Assembly (NCBI GenBank): GCA_002382755.1
Contig: DFZT01000026.1
Location: 1-6,061 of the forward strand
Length of the DNA stretch: 6,061 nt
From: Firmicutes bacterium UBA4049
Lineage (GTDB): Bacteria > Bacillota > Desulfotomaculia > Desulfotomaculales > Nap2-2B
Direction: 5' to 3'
This document shows, in pieces, positions 1-5,989 of this stretch; positions within the stretch are counted from its first letter, which is position 1; each line of letters opens with the position of its first letter. Under the pieces are notes generated by a model. The model was not told the DNA's origin. It saw only the letters and a program-made list of their open reading frames with translations, and searched no databases. The translations under genes were made by a program, and so were the position numbers.

Positions 1-361
<361 letters not shown>

Positions 362-436: not shown

Positions 437-482
437 AAGAAAATATAAGAGCCTTTAGTCAGGTTCATTCCTGACTAAAGGC
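437..482 (-). terminator. Conditional intrinsic terminator in the nifH leader
   Basis: A perfect 13-bp stem pairs 470-482 with 451-463 around the six-base loop at 464-469. It is followed on the minus strand by TCTTATATTTTCTT, 10 T in 14 bases. Its lower half competes with hairpin P1 of the antiterminator for the same strand, so it should form by default and disappear when P1 is held. The U run is interrupted, so efficiency is uncertain. The hairpin is equally stable when read on the plus strand but is not followed there by a good U tract. Confidence 0.7.
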
Positions 483-495
483 TTCTCTGCCTTTA
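451..495 (-). promoter_or_regulatory. ANTAR-type dual-hexaloop antiterminator in the nifH leader
   Basis: Read on the minus strand, P1 is a 7-bp stem TAAAGGC/GCCTTTA (489-495 with 476-482) closed by the hexaloop AGAGAA. Directly after it, P2 is a 6-bp stem GTCAGG/CCTGAC (470-475 with 458-463) closed by the hexaloop AATGAA. Both loops have A at position 1 and G at position 4, the signature I recall for RNA bound by ANTAR-domain antiterminators (EutV, NasR and relatives). The P1 descending strand (476-482) is also the 5' arm of the longer terminator stem, so P1+P2 and the terminator exclude each other. It lies about 34 nt after the predicted start site. The inferred role is that a phosphorylated or ligand-bound ANTAR protein, encoded elsewhere, stabilises P1/P2 and lets transcription enter nifH. 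Geometry is seen directly; the binding protein is inferred. Confidence 0.72.
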
Positions 496-535
496 AAATA
501 CAACTATGTATACTTAGATAAATATAATCAAGTAA

Positions 536-564
536 ATAATAACTGAAGTTATTTTTCTTGTCAA
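536..564 (-). promoter_or_regulatory. SigA-type promoter of nifH
   Basis: On the minus strand a perfect -35 box TTGACA (559-564) is followed after 17 bp by TATTAT (536-541). Transcription should start near position 529, which gives nifH a leader of about 260 nt. No sigma-54 (-24/-12) promoter was seen here, so nif control is more likely to act after initiation, through the leader, than through NifA. The assignment is from consensus and spacing only. Confidence 0.75.
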
Positions 565-655: not shown

Positions 656-1366
656 ATGAATAAATACAAATCAGCTGTCGTTTTATTCATCGCCTTTCTT
701 GTCCTGGGTTGTTTTGTAATTTTCTCAAACGCCGGAAAAGCCCCGGCGCAAAACCGGCCGGTTTACTGGGGTCTTTCGGGGAACGATGTATCCCGGCTCC
801 AGCAGACATTATATGACTGGGGTTATTACACCGGCCAGGTTGACGGCATGTTTGGAAATGCAACTTACCGGTCGCTGATCAACTTTCAGACCAGTAACGG
901 ATTAGCTGCAGACGGTGTTGCGGGAACGGCGACATGGGCTGCGCTGGGGTTTTCTTCGGGTAATGATCCTGTCAGCCAGCCGGCGCCGGCCAGTGTTTCC
1001 CGCGGTGTAAGCAACCGGGATGACACATACCTTCTGGCCAGGGTTATCGAAGGGGAGGCTTCCAACGAATCCTTTGCCGGCAAGGTGGCTGTAGGCGCTG
1101 TAATCCTGAACAGGATGCAAAGCGCGGCTTTTCCTCGTTCACTCGCAGGCATTGTTTACCAGCCGGGAGCTTTTGAATCGGTAAGCAACGGGCAATACAG
1201 CCGCCCGCTGACAGACGATTCGATCAGGGCGGCTATGATGGCCATGAGTGGTTGGGACCCCACCGGAGGCGCCCTGTATTTCTGGAACCCGGCCAAGCCG
1301 GTTAACGCCTGGGTATGGACCCGTAACGTGCTTACTCAAATCGGGCGACACATTTTCGCCAGATAA
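656..1366 (+). CDS. sleB: Spore cortex-lytic enzyme SleB
   Basis: SleB is a lytic transglycosylase that cuts muramic-delta-lactam-containing cortex peptidoglycan during spore germination. It is made in the forespore and stored in the spore with YpeB. The 236-aa protein has a signal sequence or membrane anchor (residues 6-24), a PG_binding_1 peptidoglycan-binding domain (about 39-97: WGLSGNDVSRLQQTL, then VDGMFGNAT and LAADGVAGTATWAAL), a Pro/Ser linker (about 100-120) and a Hydrolase_2 catalytic domain (about 126-232). The signature LLARVIEGEASNESFAGKVA contains the likely catalytic Glu of 'GEA' (residue 134), and the C-terminal NPAK...W..R motif is typical. The ATG has an AGGAGGG site 9 nt upstream. 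ypeB follows after 48 bp, the usual germination operon. VLGC at residues 16-19 resembles a lipobox, but the hydrophobic stretch continues past the Cys, so lipidation is doubtful. A forespore sigma-G promoter is expected but was not clearly found. Confidence 0.93.
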   Translation: MNKYKSAVVLFIAFLVLGCFVIFSNAGKAPAQNRPVYWGLSGNDVSRLQQTLYDWGYYTGQVDGMFGNATYRSLINFQTSNGLAADGVAGTATWAALGFSSGNDPVSQPAPASVSRGVSNRDDTYLLARVIEGEASNESFAGKVAVGAVILNRMQSAAFPRSLAGIVYQPGAFESVSNGQYSRPLTDDSIRAAMMAMSGWDPTGGALYFWNPAKPVNAWVWTRNVLTQIGRHIFAR

Positions 1367-1414
1367 GTATATTAAAGTACCAATTTTTTCATTATATTGC
1401 GGGGGGAGTTATCA

Positions 1415-2794
1415 ATGTCTACTATACGCTGGCGCCGGCTTCTGCCTTTAGTAACCGCAGTTGTGTTGGTGGGCGGCATATTCCTGTGGGGTCACCAGCA
1501 GTATTCTGTCCGCAAACAACTTGAAGTATCTTTAAACAATAAATATTACCGCTCGTTTTATGACCTGCTGGATAACGTCCAAAGCGTCGAAGTGCTTCTT
1601 TCCAAGGCGCTTATAGCGCAGGCGCCCGATCAGGACAGTAAAATCCTTTCGGAAATATGGCAGCGGGCCAATGCCGCCCAGGCAAACCTAAACCAGTTGC
1701 CGCTGACCGATATCACAACAGGCCGCACTTCCAAGTTTTTAACCCAGGTTGGGGATTACTCTTTCACATTGCTTCAAAAAATTGCCGACGGCCAACCTAA
1801 AAGTCAGAAAGACTGGAACACACTGCAAACACTATATAAACAGACTTCTAACCTGGATACAGAGCTTCAGGACACTGAAAGAAGAATTGCCGAAGGCAAA
1901 CTATACTTGGGCGAACTGGCTCGGCAAACGGGCAGGGCTGTTCGAAAAGAAGGGCCAAAACTGGCTAACGGGAACTTCCAGAAAATCGAGGACAATCTGA
2001 AAAGCTTTCCAACACTGATCTACGACGGCCCCTTTTCAGATAAACTGGAAGAAAAGACAGCAAAGGGAATCACAGGCGCAAAAATTAATATCTTTGAGGC
2101 GAAAGCCCGTATTTTAGGGCTTGTTGAACACCGGCCGGGCACTAAATATGTTATGGAAGGCATCCGTAAAATTGAAGGCAAGATACCCGCTTTTCAGGCT
2201 GATCTTATTTCAACATCCGGGAGTTCCGGTGAAAAAGAAAGGCTGAGCGTAGCCGTCAGCAGGCAGGGAGGCAAATTGCTCTGGTATACTTTATCCCGTA
2301 AAGTCGCCTCCAATAAAATGACCCTTGCCGAGGCAAGAAAAAAAGCGGCGGACTTCCTTTCTGAAAAAGGGTACCGGAATGTGACCCCTATTTATTATGA
2401 AGAGGGGGCGGGGATGGCTGTCTTCAACTTTGCCGCAACACAAAACGGGGTAACCCTTTATCCCGATCAAATCAAAGTGACAGTAGCCCTGGATAACGGC
2501 CAAATCCTCGGGATTGAGGCAACAAATTACCTGATCACTCACCATAACCGGGACATTCCCAAACCAGCCCTGACGCTTGCTCAGGCCAGGGAGAAACTAA
2601 GCCCTCATCTTACAAAAATCAGCAGCGGCCGCCTGACTTTAATTCCCAAGGGAACGGCCAGTGAAGTTCTTGCATATGAATTTCGGGGCGAACTTGATCA
2701 GGATACCTTCCTAATTTATATAAATGCGGCAAACGGAAAAGAAGAGCAGGTATTGCGGCTGGTAAGAAACAAAGAAGGAGTTCTTAGTTTTTAA
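1415..2794 (+). CDS. ypeB: Germination protein YpeB (SleB partner)
   Basis: YpeB is the membrane-anchored partner that SleB needs for stable deposition in the dormant spore; it is processed at germination. The 459-aa product has a short basic N-terminus, one transmembrane segment (about 9-26), an alpha-helical region (about 30-195), the family signature PTLIYDGPFSDKL (199-211) and three PepSY-like repeats (about 225-295, 300-372 and 385-455, the last two opening with MTLAEARKKA and LTLAQAREKL). Length is normal for the family. I chose the ATG at 1415 because GGGGGGAG lies 6 nt upstream; an in-frame TTG at 1397 would put that site inside the coding region. The gene sits 48 bp after sleB with no terminator between them, so the two are probably co-transcribed. 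A terminator follows. Confidence 0.93.
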   Translation: MSTIRWRRLLPLVTAVVLVGGIFLWGHQQYSVRKQLEVSLNNKYYRSFYDLLDNVQSVEVLLSKALIAQAPDQDSKILSEIWQRANAAQANLNQLPLTDITTGRTSKFLTQVGDYSFTLLQKIADGQPKSQKDWNTLQTLYKQTSNLDTELQDTERRIAEGKLYLGELARQTGRAVRKEGPKLANGNFQKIEDNLKSFPTLIYDGPFSDKLEEKTAKGITGAKINIFEAKARILGLVEHRPGTKYVMEGIRKIEGKIPAFQADLISTSGSSGEKERLSVAVSRQGGKLLWYTLSRKVASNKMTLAEARKKAADFLSEKGYRNVTPIYYEEGAGMAVFNFAATQNGVTLYPDQIKVTVALDNGQILGIEATNYLITHHNRDIPKPALTLAQAREKLSPHLTKISSGRLTLIPKGTASEVLAYEFRGELDQDTFLIYINAANGKEEQVLRLVRNKEGVLSF

Positions 2795-2889: not shown

Positions 2890-3207
2890 TTAAACGCATC
2901 CGAGTGGTTTGGGCAAACCGGCCGTTTTGCAGGCGCCTTTTGCCGGCCCTGAAGGAAACAGTTCATAAATATATTTCAGGGTAAAGCCGGTTTCCTTGCA
3001 AAGTTTTCTGATCATTGGCGCAATCTGGAAGTTTAAATAATATTCTCTTATATAATTAACCACTTTCCAGTGATCATCACCGAGTTCGGCAACGCCTTCC
3101 GTAGCTGCGAGGGCAGCGGCAATATCCCTGTCCCAGGAATTCGGGTCTTTAATAAAACCATCATCATCCACCTCAATTTCCCTGTTGCCAATCTTAATTG
3201 CTGACAT
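2890..3207 (-). CDS. dsrC: DsrC, sulfur-carrier/trisulfide protein of dissimilatory sulfite reduction
   Basis: DsrC is the small cytoplasmic co-substrate of dissimilatory sulfite reductase DsrAB. Two C-terminal cysteines carry the DsrC-trisulfide product, which is then reduced through the DsrMK(JOP) membrane complex. The 105-aa protein has the normal length and the diagnostic arm GPAKGACKTAGLPKPLGCV with both cysteines (Cys93 and penultimate Cys104), so it is a true DsrC rather than TusE, which keeps only the last one. The N-terminus VDDDGFIKDPNSWDRDIA and the central HWKVVNYIREYY...PMIRKL are typical. I chose the ATG at 3207 because an AGG site lies about 8 nt upstream and it gives the standard length; an in-frame TTG at 3225 adds six residues and lacks a good site. 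No dsrAB is adjacent, and stand-alone dsrC genes are common. An IS607 element ends just upstream, so its native promoter may have been displaced. Confidence 0.95.
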   Translation of the reverse strand: MSAIKIGNREIEVDDDGFIKDPNSWDRDIAAALAATEGVAELGDDHWKVVNYIREYYLNFQIAPMIRKLCKETGFTLKYIYELFPSGPAKGACKTAGLPKPLGCV

Positions 3208-3240
3208 TAAAATAACCTGGTTCAAAAAAGTTCACAATAC

Positions 3241-3254: not shown

Positions 3255-3530
3255 TTTTTGTAAACCCGGCCCCCCTTGACCAGGCTTTACACCTCCATAG
3301 AAAATTTCCCTGGGGTGACAGGGGGGCCTCGGCCCGGGAGTCTCACCCGGACGGGAGATGAAAAATATTGCGCAGGCCGGGCACAAAACACGGACTAACG
3401 GGAAATCACCCGGGGCGAATGGAACCCGCTGAATTTTCATCTTGTGTTGACCAGCCGGCGAGAGGTTAACCCCACCTCCCGCGCCCTGTTAGGGCGCCTG
3501 CCGGTTTTTTCCGAACTCCGGCTAACGGGG
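3255..3530 (-). ncRNA. Putative omega (guide) RNA / right-end region of the IS607 element
   Basis: This stretch of about 275 bp downstream of the tnpB-like stop has no credible gene; a 72-codon frame at 3222-3440 has no ribosome site and low-complexity content. It is GC-rich and folds into a series of hairpins: 3500-3522 (GCCGG/CCGGC), 3481-3497 (GCGCCC/GGGCGC), 3462-3478 (GAGGT/ACCTC), 3334-3350 (CCGGG/CCCGG) and 3308-3323 (CCCTG/CAGGG). TnpB guide RNAs are made from exactly this position, the 3' end of tnpB through the element's right end, with the guide taken from flanking DNA. The RNA is inferred by position and structure only; expression and boundaries are unknown. Confidence 0.45.
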
Positions 3531-5240
3531 TCACCTACTCAGTAAAACAAGTTGCTTCAAGTCGTGCCAGGCGGAATAAAACGATTCCTGCTTGAAACGG
3601 GTCAGCCCGTTGTGAACAGAAACCTTTCCGCCCAGCCGTGTGACAAGCTGTTTTACCTTTCGGGTCATCCCTTTTCCTTCCCCAGGTAAGGAATTAACTT
3701 TTTGGCTCAGCTTTTCTCTTATGGCTTGGATTTTCTGCTTTAACTCTTTTGTGATACGCTCTCTGAAACCTATCGCCCGGCGGGCGATTACTAAGGCAGC
3801 GGCGTGGTGGATGATTATTCCGTACCGCTCCATGTATTTGTAATAACCTATCGTTGACGTGTGTGCCGGCCAGACTTGCTTTACGGCCACGCCTTCTTTG
3901 AAGGCCTTGCGGATGACGGCTTCGACCATTTTCTTGTACGGGAAGTTGGCCGCCATGCGGTTGAATTTTTTATTCGTGTCCAACCGGTCTTTGCCAAAGT
4001 CCAGTTTTTCCACCGCCACCGGTTTGCCCAGGGCTTTGGCTATGGCCACCACCACTTGGGCCAACACTCCAGTCAAGTAGGTGCGCCGGTAACCCCGGCT
4101 GTAAGCCAGTTCGGGTATCTTGATGTAGAGAAACCCGTTCGGGTGTACTGTCACCTGAAATTCCCCGGCGAATTTATGCAGGGCCTTCGGGTAAGGTGCA
4201 GTAAACCCTGTTGGCCATGGTTCCGGCTGTCCGGTGCAACTAATACTGGCCAGGGCCACTCCGTCTGGGTTGGTGTCCATACCTAAATAGCCCCTGTTGG
4301 AGTTGGTCGCTGCTTCAGGCACGGCGACGGTAAAGGTAATATGCGCCCTGTACCGGTCGTCCCTGCCTTTGATTAGCTCCACTGTATAGGAGGTGCCGGA
4401 AAGGAGTAACTCCAGTACCTTGAGCCGCTGCTTCTCCGGTAACCAGAGCTTACCCGTGACTTTGGGCGCCCTGGTCATTACGGGCCTGCTTTTGCTGTCT
4501 GTACCTTTCTGCTCCGACAAGTGGGATATGGTTGCGGATAAGAAAAATTCTCCATTGCGCCAGCTTATTTTGATGTTCGGATTGCCACCTTTGGTTTCGT
4601 CTCCGCGGGCGTACAGCCGGTCCTGACGGGCCTGCCGCCACTCTTCGCGGGTGGCTTTGCCTTTGCAGACCCGCTTCCATAAAGCGCGGCCGCCGAAAAC
4701 TACTTTCGGTATGGCGCCGTTGTCCTGATGGACCTTTAGCTCGCCAAACTTGTCAGCCAGTTTTTTGACCCGCGCTCTGCGGCCGTGTATGGCGCGCTTA
4801 AACTTCTCGATTTTTACCGGATCATTCTTCTCGATGGCTTTGTCCAGATCTTTTTTCGCCCAGCCAAGCTTTTTCTTTGTGCGGGCCAGCTTTGTTCCGG
4901 TCTCTTGAATTTCCAGCTTCAGCAACTCTTTTTGAGATTCAATGACGGCTTTGGCTTTCAGTATGGTGTCGTCACAATAGCGGGAGTTTAAACCGAATGT
5001 CCCCTGACCCTGCTTTTTCAGTGCTTCCCGCGAATCGCCTTCCTGCAACCGGTTGAAGACCCAACGGGTGCAGGAACAAAAAAGACGCATCTCGGCGTCT
5101 AACGGGTCTTCCATCCCACGACTCCACTTTTGAGAGCGGATGGCTGGGTAGACCTCCGGGAAAAATTCGCCGCAAACGGTGTAGCTTGTTTCACCATCAG
5201 GACTGCCCAATTTCTTTTTGTTTTTCTTTCGTTTCTTCAT
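3531..5240 (-). CDS. tnpB: TnpB-related protein of IS607 (RuvC-fold, divergent)
   Basis: TnpB proteins are RNA-guided nucleases encoded by IS200/IS605 and IS607 elements that help keep the element in place. This 569-aa protein is longer than usual (about 370-450 aa). It has a Lys-rich N-terminus (1-10), a basic, probably coiled helical region (about 92-170), RuvC-I with GYLGMDTNPDG (Asp322), RuvC-II with VAVEKLDF (Glu411) and a C-terminal motif HTSTIGYYKYMERYGIIIHHAAALVIARR (His460 to Arg488, given here as two parts: HTSTIG and IIIHHAAALVIARR). The third RuvC position reads His478 where classic TnpB has Asp, and there is no paired CxxC zinc ribbon. I recall similar HTS/YTS...HxAAA..I.RR endings in 'TnpB-related' proteins of thermophilic Firmicutes, so it is probably a lineage feature, not decay. 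The ATG has GGAGG 9 nt upstream and lies inside the original end of tnpA (44-nt overlap). The frame is intact. Whether it still cuts DNA is unknown. Confidence 0.85.
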   Translation of the reverse strand: MKKRKKNKKKLGSPDGETSYTVCGEFFPEVYPAIRSQKWSRGMEDPLDAEMRLFCSCTRWVFNRLQEGDSREALKKQGQGTFGLNSRYCDDTILKAKAVIESQKELLKLEIQETGTKLARTKKKLGWAKKDLDKAIEKNDPVKIEKFKRAIHGRRARVKKLADKFGELKVHQDNGAIPKVVFGGRALWKRVCKGKATREEWRQARQDRLYARGDETKGGNPNIKISWRNGEFFLSATISHLSEQKGTDSKSRPVMTRAPKVTGKLWLPEKQRLKVLELLLSGTSYTVELIKGRDDRYRAHITFTVAVPEAATNSNRGYLGMDTNPDGVALASISCTGQPEPWPTGFTAPYPKALHKFAGEFQVTVHPNGFLYIKIPELAYSRGYRRTYLTGVLAQVVVAIAKALGKPVAVEKLDFGKDRLDTNKKFNRMAANFPYKKMVEAVIRKAFKEGVAVKQVWPAHTSTIGYYKYMERYGIIIHHAAALVIARRAIGFRERITKELKQKIQAIREKLSQKVNSLPGEGKGMTRKVKQLVTRLGGKVSVHNGLTRFKQESFYSAWHDLKQLVLLSR

Positions 5241-5350: not shown

Positions 5351-5465
5351 ACTAGTAATTAGTATCATATTTAACATTGCATGGTTATTACACTATCAAT
5401 TCGTCCAAGCAACATTTATAGCCGGACAGGTAGATGTGACGTTATATTTGATACTGTCTACTAGT
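5351..5465. mobile_element. 103-bp MITE-like insertion in tnpA with 6-bp target duplication
   Basis: The insert (5357-5459) is flanked by two copies of ACTAGT (5351-5356 and 5460-5465). Its ends are imperfect inverted repeats: 18 of the first 26 bases match, including AGTATCA and TAAC at the same distances from each end. It is about one-third G+C, clearly poorer than tnpA around it, and has no reading frame of note. Excision of insert plus one duplicate restores the tnpA frame exactly (SELV-RDLLAIV). It has no transposase, so it would have been moved by an enzyme elsewhere in the genome. ACTAGT is palindromic, so the exact duplication length (2-6 bp) is ambiguous. A TATGAT box inside it (minus strand) might supply a weak promoter for tnpB. 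Confidence 0.8.
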
Positions 5466-5989
5466 TCTGACTGAGCGTCTTTTTGCTCTTTTTCAGCTAT
5501 AGCAATTACCTCTACCCCGCAGTAACGCAGGTGCCGCTCGATGTACGAGTACCCAAACCTGGCCAGACGGTCAGGATATTCGATGACGAGCTTCTTGTAT
5601 TCTCCACGCTCGGCCAGTTTGAGCACGTTCGTCAATCCGCGGCGCTTCTGATTTAAGCCACTGGCTACGTCCATAAACTCCGCCTTGACGATAAAGTTGT
5701 GCTCTTTGGTGTATTGGCGCAGCCGGTCCATTTGCCGCTCAAGATTACCGGCGTCGGCCTGCTTCTTGGTGGATACCCGGGCATAAAGCCGGGCATAAAG
5801 CACGACTGTTTCTTGATTGTCAGTTAATTGGCCGGATTGCAAAAGCCTGTTGAGTTCGTCCATAGAATACCGGCGCTGGCCCTTGGGTAAACGGATTGGC
5901 TTGATCAGACCCTGCTTCTCCCAGTTGCGCAGGCTGTTCGGATGTACGCCTAGTTTTTTTGCCGCTTTGCTTATGGTTAATAGTTCCAT
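5396..5989 (-). CDS. tnpA: IS607-family serine recombinase TnpA, truncated by insertion
   Basis: TnpA of IS607 is a small serine recombinase that excises and integrates the element through a phosphoserine intermediate. The reading frame gives 197 aa: a MerR-type helix-turn-helix (residues 4-50, ISKAAKKLGVHPNSLRNWEKQG then GQRRYS), the catalytic strand ending VSTKKQ (Ser73), GLNQKRRGL (111-119), YPDRLARFG (138-146, active-site arginines) and AQSELV (172-177). The last 20 residues (DSIKYNV…AWTN) are not family-like; they are read from the inserted 103-bp element and replace the true C-terminal helix, found at 5197-5350. LYAR occurs twice in a row (residues 64-71) through a 12-bp tandem duplication just before the catalytic Ser. 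The ATG at 5989 has no ribosome site, yet the promoter -10 lies 6 bp upstream, so the mRNA should be leaderless. The product is probably inactive. Confidence 0.88.
   Translation of the reverse strand: MELLTISKAAKKLGVHPNSLRNWEKQGLIKPIRLPKGQRRYSMDELNRLLQSGQLTDNQETVVLYARLYARVSTKKQADAGNLERQMDRLRQYTKEHNFIVKAEFMDVASGLNQKRRGLTNVLKLAERGEYKKLVIEYPDRLARFGYSYIERHLRYCGVEVIAIAEKEQKDAQSELVDSIKYNVTSTCPAINVAWTN
5777..5801. repeat. 12-bp tandem duplication inside tnpA (LYAR-LYAR)
   Basis: CCGGGCATAAAG is present twice end to end (5777-5788 and 5789-5800), with the identity running one base further. It adds four residues (LYAR) in frame at the end of the first beta strand, directly before the VS of the catalytic serine motif. 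Family members normally have a single LYARVS. Confidence 0.9.

Follow-up and report, generated by a model that had tools for sequence, protein, structure and literature searches.

A putative ANTAR-controlled attenuator with three predicted terminators in the nifH leader of Firmicutes bacterium UBA4049

Judging from its sequence, the nifH leader of Firmicutes bacterium UBA4049 (Desulfotomaculales) is probably a transcription attenuator controlled by an ANTAR-domain protein. Two hairpins, P1 and P2, carry hexaloops with A at position 1 and G at position 4 (A1/G4), P2 shares an arm with a predicted terminator, T1, and two more predicted terminators, T2 and T3, follow before the gene. The stretch analysed (hereafter the window, 6,061 nucleotides) spans one entire contig, C21, of a 1.8-Mb genome assembled in 101 contigs and estimated as 92.9% complete. 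It holds the first 90 codons of nifH (1-270, minus strand, ATG at 270), the contig ending inside the gene, and the encoded fragment matches Pfam Fer4_NifH with 136 bits. All leader elements described below lie on the minus strand. A gene for a sleB-like cell wall hydrolase (656-1366, plus strand) is divergent from nifH, so the terminators of the nifH leader are not those of an upstream gene.

Elsewhere in the window, the sleB-like gene is followed by a ypeB-like gene (together 656-2794, plus strand), the two forming the spore germination pair, and a gene for a DsrC-like protein lies at 2890-3225 (minus strand). A 569-aa protein without Pfam match adjoins a MerR-plus-resolvase protein (3531-5240 and 5396-5989, minus strand), an arrangement typical of IS607-type elements that carry a TnpB-like gene. 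GC-rich inverted repeats are found at about 3300-3530, at the end of the larger of these two genes.

Anatomy of the leader

A sigma-70-like promoter, TTGACA-17-TATTAT, is located at 564-536 with one mismatch from consensus; only 0.01 promoter-like sites this close to the consensus are expected in the window. Downstream of it, both the hexaloop scan and the covariance model described below identify P1 at 511-498 (ATAC[ATAGTT]GTAT, 4 bp, A1/G4). P2 follows at 494-477 (AAAGGC[AGAGAA]GCCTTT, A1/G4), with a stem of 6 bp that extends to 8 bp. The two hairpins start 19 nt apart, and the length of the linker between them depends on the P2 pairs counted, being 3 nt with 6 bp and 6 nt with 3 bp. With two hairpins of at least 3 bp, hexaloops, and A1 and G4 in both of them, the pair resembles an ANTAR substrate in these features. 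T1 (482-451), predicted by RNAfold and by the terminator scan, is a perfect 13-bp stem followed by TCTTATATTTTCT, a U-rich tail that is not a strong U-tract. GCCTTT at 482-477 is common to the 3' arm of P2 and the 5' arm of T1, and the upper half of the T1 stem forms an apical hairpin, AGTCAGG[AATGAA]CCTGACT, at 476-457.

The near-consensus promoter, the hairpins at 494-477 and 476-457 and the arm shared with a 13-bp terminator stem had all been described in an earlier, sequence-only reading of this DNA, and all are present. The ANTAR interpretation offered there is probably correct, but the roles given to the hairpins have to be reassigned, since its "P1" is the canonical P2, its "P2" is the apex of T1 and the true P1 at 511-498 was missed. 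Its claim of a zero-length linker and an unusually compact switch falls with this reassignment, as the second hairpin is simply the top of the terminator, and such a layout is not the general one across the order. Moreover, a single terminator was proposed, whereas the leader has three predicted ones.

RNAfold gives -29.5 kcal/mol for 430-530 (z -4.9), a value that none of 200 shuffles equalled. The free optimum fold, which contains T1, reaches -28.7 kcal/mol compared with -20.7 kcal/mol when P1 and P2 are enforced, and therefore the terminator is the predicted default. A scan for two closely spaced A1/G4 hexaloops with stems of at least 5 bp, covering the window, locus L003, 80 NifH loci and four loci of another contig (C28) of the genome, gave three matches, namely the window, L005, which holds the same gene of a relative, and L082, where the match is not upstream of nifH.

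The second predicted terminator, T2 (429-382, with a U-rich tail; 425-386 in the terminator scan), consists of an outer stem and an inner hairpin with the loop GC[GATGCT]GC. Its 5' arm is overlapped by a weak hexaloop hairpin of 3 bp, AGC[AAAGGT]GCT, at 432-421 (10.2 bits). The third, T3 (365-314), reads GCCCCGGC...GCCGGGG with a U-rich tail. The hairpin overlapping its 5' arm, GGG(T)C[ATTGAC]GCCC at 373-359, has one bulge, was not picked by the hexaloop scan and was assigned by eye; an unbulged counterpart, GGGC[ATTGGC]GCCC, exists in other families of the order. In the window the combined terminator and hexaloop scan itself picks T1 and T2, T3 having been added by eye. A complete P1 and P2 pair at normal spacing was found at neither T2 nor T3, and the nearest purine-1/G-4 hexaloop upstream of the T2 hairpin is 40 nt away.

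Two other readings of this region were considered and set aside. An early riboswitch interpretation of the second and third hairpins was dropped, as they had no Rfam match and both overlap hexaloop hairpins. A daisy chain, in which each terminator apex would serve as P1 for the next terminator, was not adopted because the T1 apex and the T2 hairpin are 40 nt apart from start to start, leaving a linker of about 24 nt, and because amtB leaders with a single terminator keep a purine-1/G-4 apex in three of four cases (by eye). A linker extension of 20 nt is reported to have abolished antitermination (Walshe et al. 2022, PMC8934654).

In the mechanism we propose, RNA polymerase would start at the promoter at 564-536 and, with no regulator bound, the T1 fold is predicted to win over P1 and P2, so that transcription would stop. 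Under nitrogen shortage a receiver-ANTAR protein, whose gene lies among those for glutamine synthetase, may bind P1 and P2, which would separate the lower half of the T1 stem from the U-tract. The same protein might gate T2 and T3 likewise, allowing nifH to be read. Termination at each predicted site, the nitrogen signal and the identity of the ANTAR protein that acts are all inferred.

Conservation in the family and the order

Five leaders of the window's family could be aligned over most of their length: those of the window, of locus L005, of nifH in two relatives (G081 and G080) and of urtA in G080. The last of these (L098, 1497-1756, minus strand) is a nifH-type leader, with promoter and three predicted terminators, that stands also before urtA, a gene identified with the corresponding NCBIfam model (602 bits against a cut-off of 493). 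Promoter boxes are identical in four of the five, the urtA leader having TATTCT. The A1 and G4 of the P1 and P2 loops are kept in all five; the P1 loops are AUAGUU, AUGGCU or AUGGUU, varying only at positions 3 and 5, and the P2 loops AGAGAA, AAAGAA or AAGGAA. No change is seen in the T1 apex AAUGAA or in the loop AAAGGU that overlaps T2. The inner loop of T2 occurs as GAUGCU, AAUGCU, AGUGCU or AGUGUU, and the loop overlapping T3 as AUUGAC, AUUGGC or AUAGGC. One mismatch interrupts the T1 stem in each of the two G080 leaders, and in G081 the stem has a gap of one base. Parts of the second and third hairpins are found again before urtA and, as read by eye, before a prkA-like gene. A T3-like hairpin, GGGC[ATCGGC]GCCC, was seen at L101 1501-1564, upstream of the prkA-like gene (by eye) and downstream of amtB-glnK-like genes. 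L005 (LGFT01000081.1) is labelled Methanothrix harundinacea; it matches the bacterial nifH leader and gene of the window and is probably a misbinned contig.

In G080 the matching leader stands before nifH, after which come two PII-like genes (by eye nifI1 and nifI2), nifD (679.8 bits, above the cut-off) and further nitrogenase-type genes. In the genome of the window no protein reached the NifD cut-off, and its own nifDK was not found. A candidate nifDKEN cluster on contig C28, taken as nitrogenase from Pfam at first, was dropped as all four proteins are far below the NCBIfam cut-offs. The cluster (L164 4-5830, minus strand) comprises four consecutive nitrogenase-component-like genes, divergent from NifD, NifK, NifE and NifN in sequence, and adjoins a divergent glutamine-synthetase-like gene.

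Of the 113 genomes examined from the order, the nifH cut-off is exceeded in 55. The 55 leaders counted comprise one from each of 53 genomes, the window (where nifH is cut) and L005; two genomes above the cut-off (G028 and G097) and second nifH copies were left out before counting. Leaders of the nifH-like paralogues L105, L113 and L114, also left out, have no A1/G4 P2. Hexaloop hairpins of at least 3 bp, with at least two G-C pairs and a 3' arm within the 5' arm of a predicted terminator, were collected with no requirement on the loop letters. This gave 122 terminator-overlapping hexaloops, of which 95 are purine-1/G-4, 58 A1/G4 and 99 G4. The purine-1/G-4 form accounts for 38 of the 217 found in the remainder of 30 of these loci and for two of 27 on the opposite strand, an enrichment of Fisher p 3e-28 that ignores relatedness, related leaders not being independent. 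All 14 families sampled have some such hexaloops. At least one terminator overlapped by a purine-1/G-4 hexaloop is present in 51 of the 55 leaders, at least two in 35 and at least three in seven.

A complete unit, defined as a purine-1/G-4 P1 lying 14-27 nt upstream together with P2 and a terminator, occurs in 36 of the 55 leaders (about two thirds), and 14 leaders have two or more. Only four units were found in 210 kb of control sequence, compared with a leader total of 23 kb. Fifteen leaders have the overlapping hexaloop and terminator but no P1 in range, and four (G040, G046, G096 and G101, the last with a leader of 133 nt) have neither P1 nor an overlapping hexaloop. Among upstream hexaloops, 53 of 84 at 14-27 nt are purine-1/G-4 versus 21 of 90 at 28-60 nt; the 19-nt spacing of the window shows no order-wide enrichment (six purine-1/G-4 versus six other). 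The common elements of the order resemble GATAC[ACTGTA]GTATC ... GGC[GAGGGC]GCC. The frequent G at loop position 1 agrees with the EutV-RNA structure, which shows a contact to G4 but no specific one to A1 (PMC8934654).

A covariance model was trained on nifH leaders of families other than that of the window, using 33 P1/P2 elements. They were chosen among 43 distinct elements after leaving out four in the wrong register, five near-duplicates and a doubtful one. In the training set 98.4% of cells are paired, a figure not used as evidence since the covariation is partly built in by the choice of sequences for pairing stems. Scanning with such a model, a check proposed along with the sequence-only reading, recovered the nifH leader at 512-480 with 26.6 bits (E 2.6e-5). 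In the whole genome the best three of 14 listed matches fall, in this order, before a receiver-ANTAR gene on contig C88 (29.8 bits), in the nifH leader and before amtB on C89 (22.6 bits). A weaker match of 20.7 bits (L194, G000:C23:138-170, minus strand) has its own overlapping terminator-like hairpin and T-run, and an apparent second terminator-like hairpin follows, the gene being off the contig end. In the other 78 NifH loci (448 kb; archaea, clostridia, rumen bacteria and others) no match exceeded 14.2 bits; the weak control matches include one of 12.9 bits immediately before the nifH of the archaeon Methanolobus vulcani (L023).

The model was also run on 16 genomes of the order that had contributed no training sequences. 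Matches (E up to 0.1) were obtained in six of the eight genomes with ANTAR genes (19 matches) versus one of the eight without (one match; Fisher p 0.04), and for nine of these 19 an ANTAR domain is no more than about 0.5 kb away. The exceptions are G107, with a match and no ANTAR gene, and G001 and G043, with ANTAR genes and no match. Misses are possible in these scans, as 150 first-look candidates were scored per genome.

Candidate regulators and alternative explanations

The genome encodes two ANTAR proteins, both on C88 and both with an ANTAR domain above the Pfam cut-off. The receiver domain of the first, ANTAR1, is also above its cut-off, while that of ANTAR2 is below (27.6 versus 30.2 bits). 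Their surroundings include a glutamate dehydrogenase-like gene, two glutamine synthetase genes that exceed the GlnA cut-off and a third, GlnA-like gene that narrowly misses it. In G080 two ANTAR genes are located further along the nifH contig; in the window's own genome the two genes are those on C88. Across the order ANTAR genes are present in 99 of the 113 genomes and in 53 of the 55 above the nifH cut-off, the exceptions being G099 and G081. The latter is 96% complete and its leader is 86% identical to that of the window, but it has no ANTAR match, perhaps due to an assembly gap.

The phospho-aspartate position of the receiver, located in an alignment with the Rv1626 and EutV chains, is occupied by glycine in ANTAR1; in ANTAR2 it is glutamate (by eye). 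Among 29 ANTAR proteins of 18 relatives the residues are 13 D, 12 E, two H, one Q and one A, the aspartate being absent in 16 of the 29 receivers as well as in both proteins of the window's genome (L003 14441-15019, minus strand, and loci L225-L242). We infer that in general the signal comes from a partner protein and not from phosphorylation. A broader reading can tentatively be offered, namely that throughout the order nitrogenase is guarded by gates in series, frequently two or three terminators, each of them to be overridden by a phosphorylation-independent ANTAR protein to which a partner, for example glutamine synthetase, would relay the signal. With serial terminators leakage would fall multiplicatively, and the frequent replacement of the phospho-aspartate, along with the position of the gene beside glutamine synthetase, would point to a signal arriving through a partner and not a kinase.

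The layout first proposed for this leader, with T1 controlled by 494-477 and the apical 476-457 as a zero-linker pair and with no upstream hairpin, is an unlikely alternative to the attenuator with an upstream P1. Both loops of that pair are A1/G4, the apical AATGAA is invariant in the five family leaders, and T2 of the window's family likewise combines a purine-1/G-4 inner loop with the lack of a nearby P1 upstream. Nevertheless, a canonical A1/G4 P1 is found upstream of the pair by a model trained on other families, and as the apical hairpin belongs to T1 its formation does not compete with T1. Moreover, only 16 of the 95 purine-1/G-4 P2 hexaloops fall on a terminator whose apex is itself a hexaloop, and in only seven is that apex purine-1/G-4, so the zero-linker arrangement is not the general design. 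Stable hairpins alone would also be conserved if they served plain constitutive attenuation or transcript protection and were bound by no ANTAR protein. We consider this very improbable, since it is the loop letters that are enriched and not the stems alone (95/122 versus 38/217), and since model matches cluster at ANTAR genes.

It is equally improbable that a metabolite-sensing riboswitch or another RNA-binding antiterminator acts on the same terminators. In the second and third hairpins sequence is kept beyond the hexaloops in the five family leaders, and the recurrence of their pieces before urtA and the prkA-like gene would suit such an element, but no Rfam family matches the nifH leader at E up to 5. 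Textbook nif control relies on NifA and sigma-54, and control of this kind, as in Proteobacteria, has just as little probability here. RpoN (sigma-54) is present in the genome, yet no protein reaches the NifA family cut-off of 528.9 bits, the best match (320.5 bits) being an activator that matches part of the model. In the 700 nt upstream of nifH, on its strand, there is a single -24/-12-like match, with three mismatches, and one with two mismatches at 1025-1010 lies inside the divergent sleB-like gene; such matches are at chance level in the window (23 found versus 26.6 expected). The combination of a NifA gene and a close -24/-12 promoter at nifH was thus not found, and the near-consensus sigma-70 promoter is conserved in the family leaders. 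The earlier inference that nif is here regulated by antitermination and not through NifA is thus reasonable but unproven.

Significance and relation to known systems

If the ANTAR-controlled attenuator is real, an order of bacteria would use transcription termination to switch nitrogenase, the uptake of ammonium and even the regulator, and nif regulation without NifA would become directly testable. The idea as such is already in print. Ramesh et al. (2012, PMC3369931) predicted ANTAR substrates upstream of nitrogenase subunits, an ANTAR nitrogenase regulon in Pelobacter carbinolicus and, for Desulfotomaculum acetoxidans, 13 elements spread over six nitrogen units. The nifH leader is a further case of this known type. 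In the literature searched, which was available in part, no experimental report of ANTAR control of nif was found, the 2012 prediction being the closest. New here are the order-wide extent, the three stacked predicted terminators, the G at loop position 1 and the frequent absence of the phospho-aspartate, as well as the corrected P1/P2 anatomy and the matching leader of the ANTAR gene itself.

In characterised ANTAR leaders P2 overlaps the terminator and P1 is upstream of P2 (PMC3369931, PMC3369936); in eut leaders the P1-P2 linker is 5-12 nt and induction is lost at 3 nt (Ramesh et al. 2012, PMC3369931). The linker of the nifH leader falls short of this range or just enters it, according to the P2 pairs counted, which speaks to some extent against the ANTAR reading. 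As in the leaders of eut (EutV), nasF (NasR) and amiE (AmiR), two A1/G4 hexaloop hairpins are present in the nifH leader, the second overlapping a predicted terminator, and an ANTAR gene in the genome and a nitrogen theme are likewise shared. Unlike them, it has three successive predicted terminators before one gene, G is common at loop position 1 and the hexaloop hairpins at T2 and T3 are weak. The predictions for P. carbinolicus and D. acetoxidans also concern nitrogenase and nitrogen genes, with more elements than transcription units, and differ from the present case in the organism, in the order-wide nifH comparison and in the ANTAR gene's own leader. NitR has a receiver-ANTAR make-up and is linked to glnA. 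It is the antiterminator of clostridial ammonia assimilation (PMC4676874). Judged from gene context, the ANTAR gene described here resembles it in adjoining glutamine synthetase genes, but here an ANTAR-type leader is found before nifH and amtB as well.
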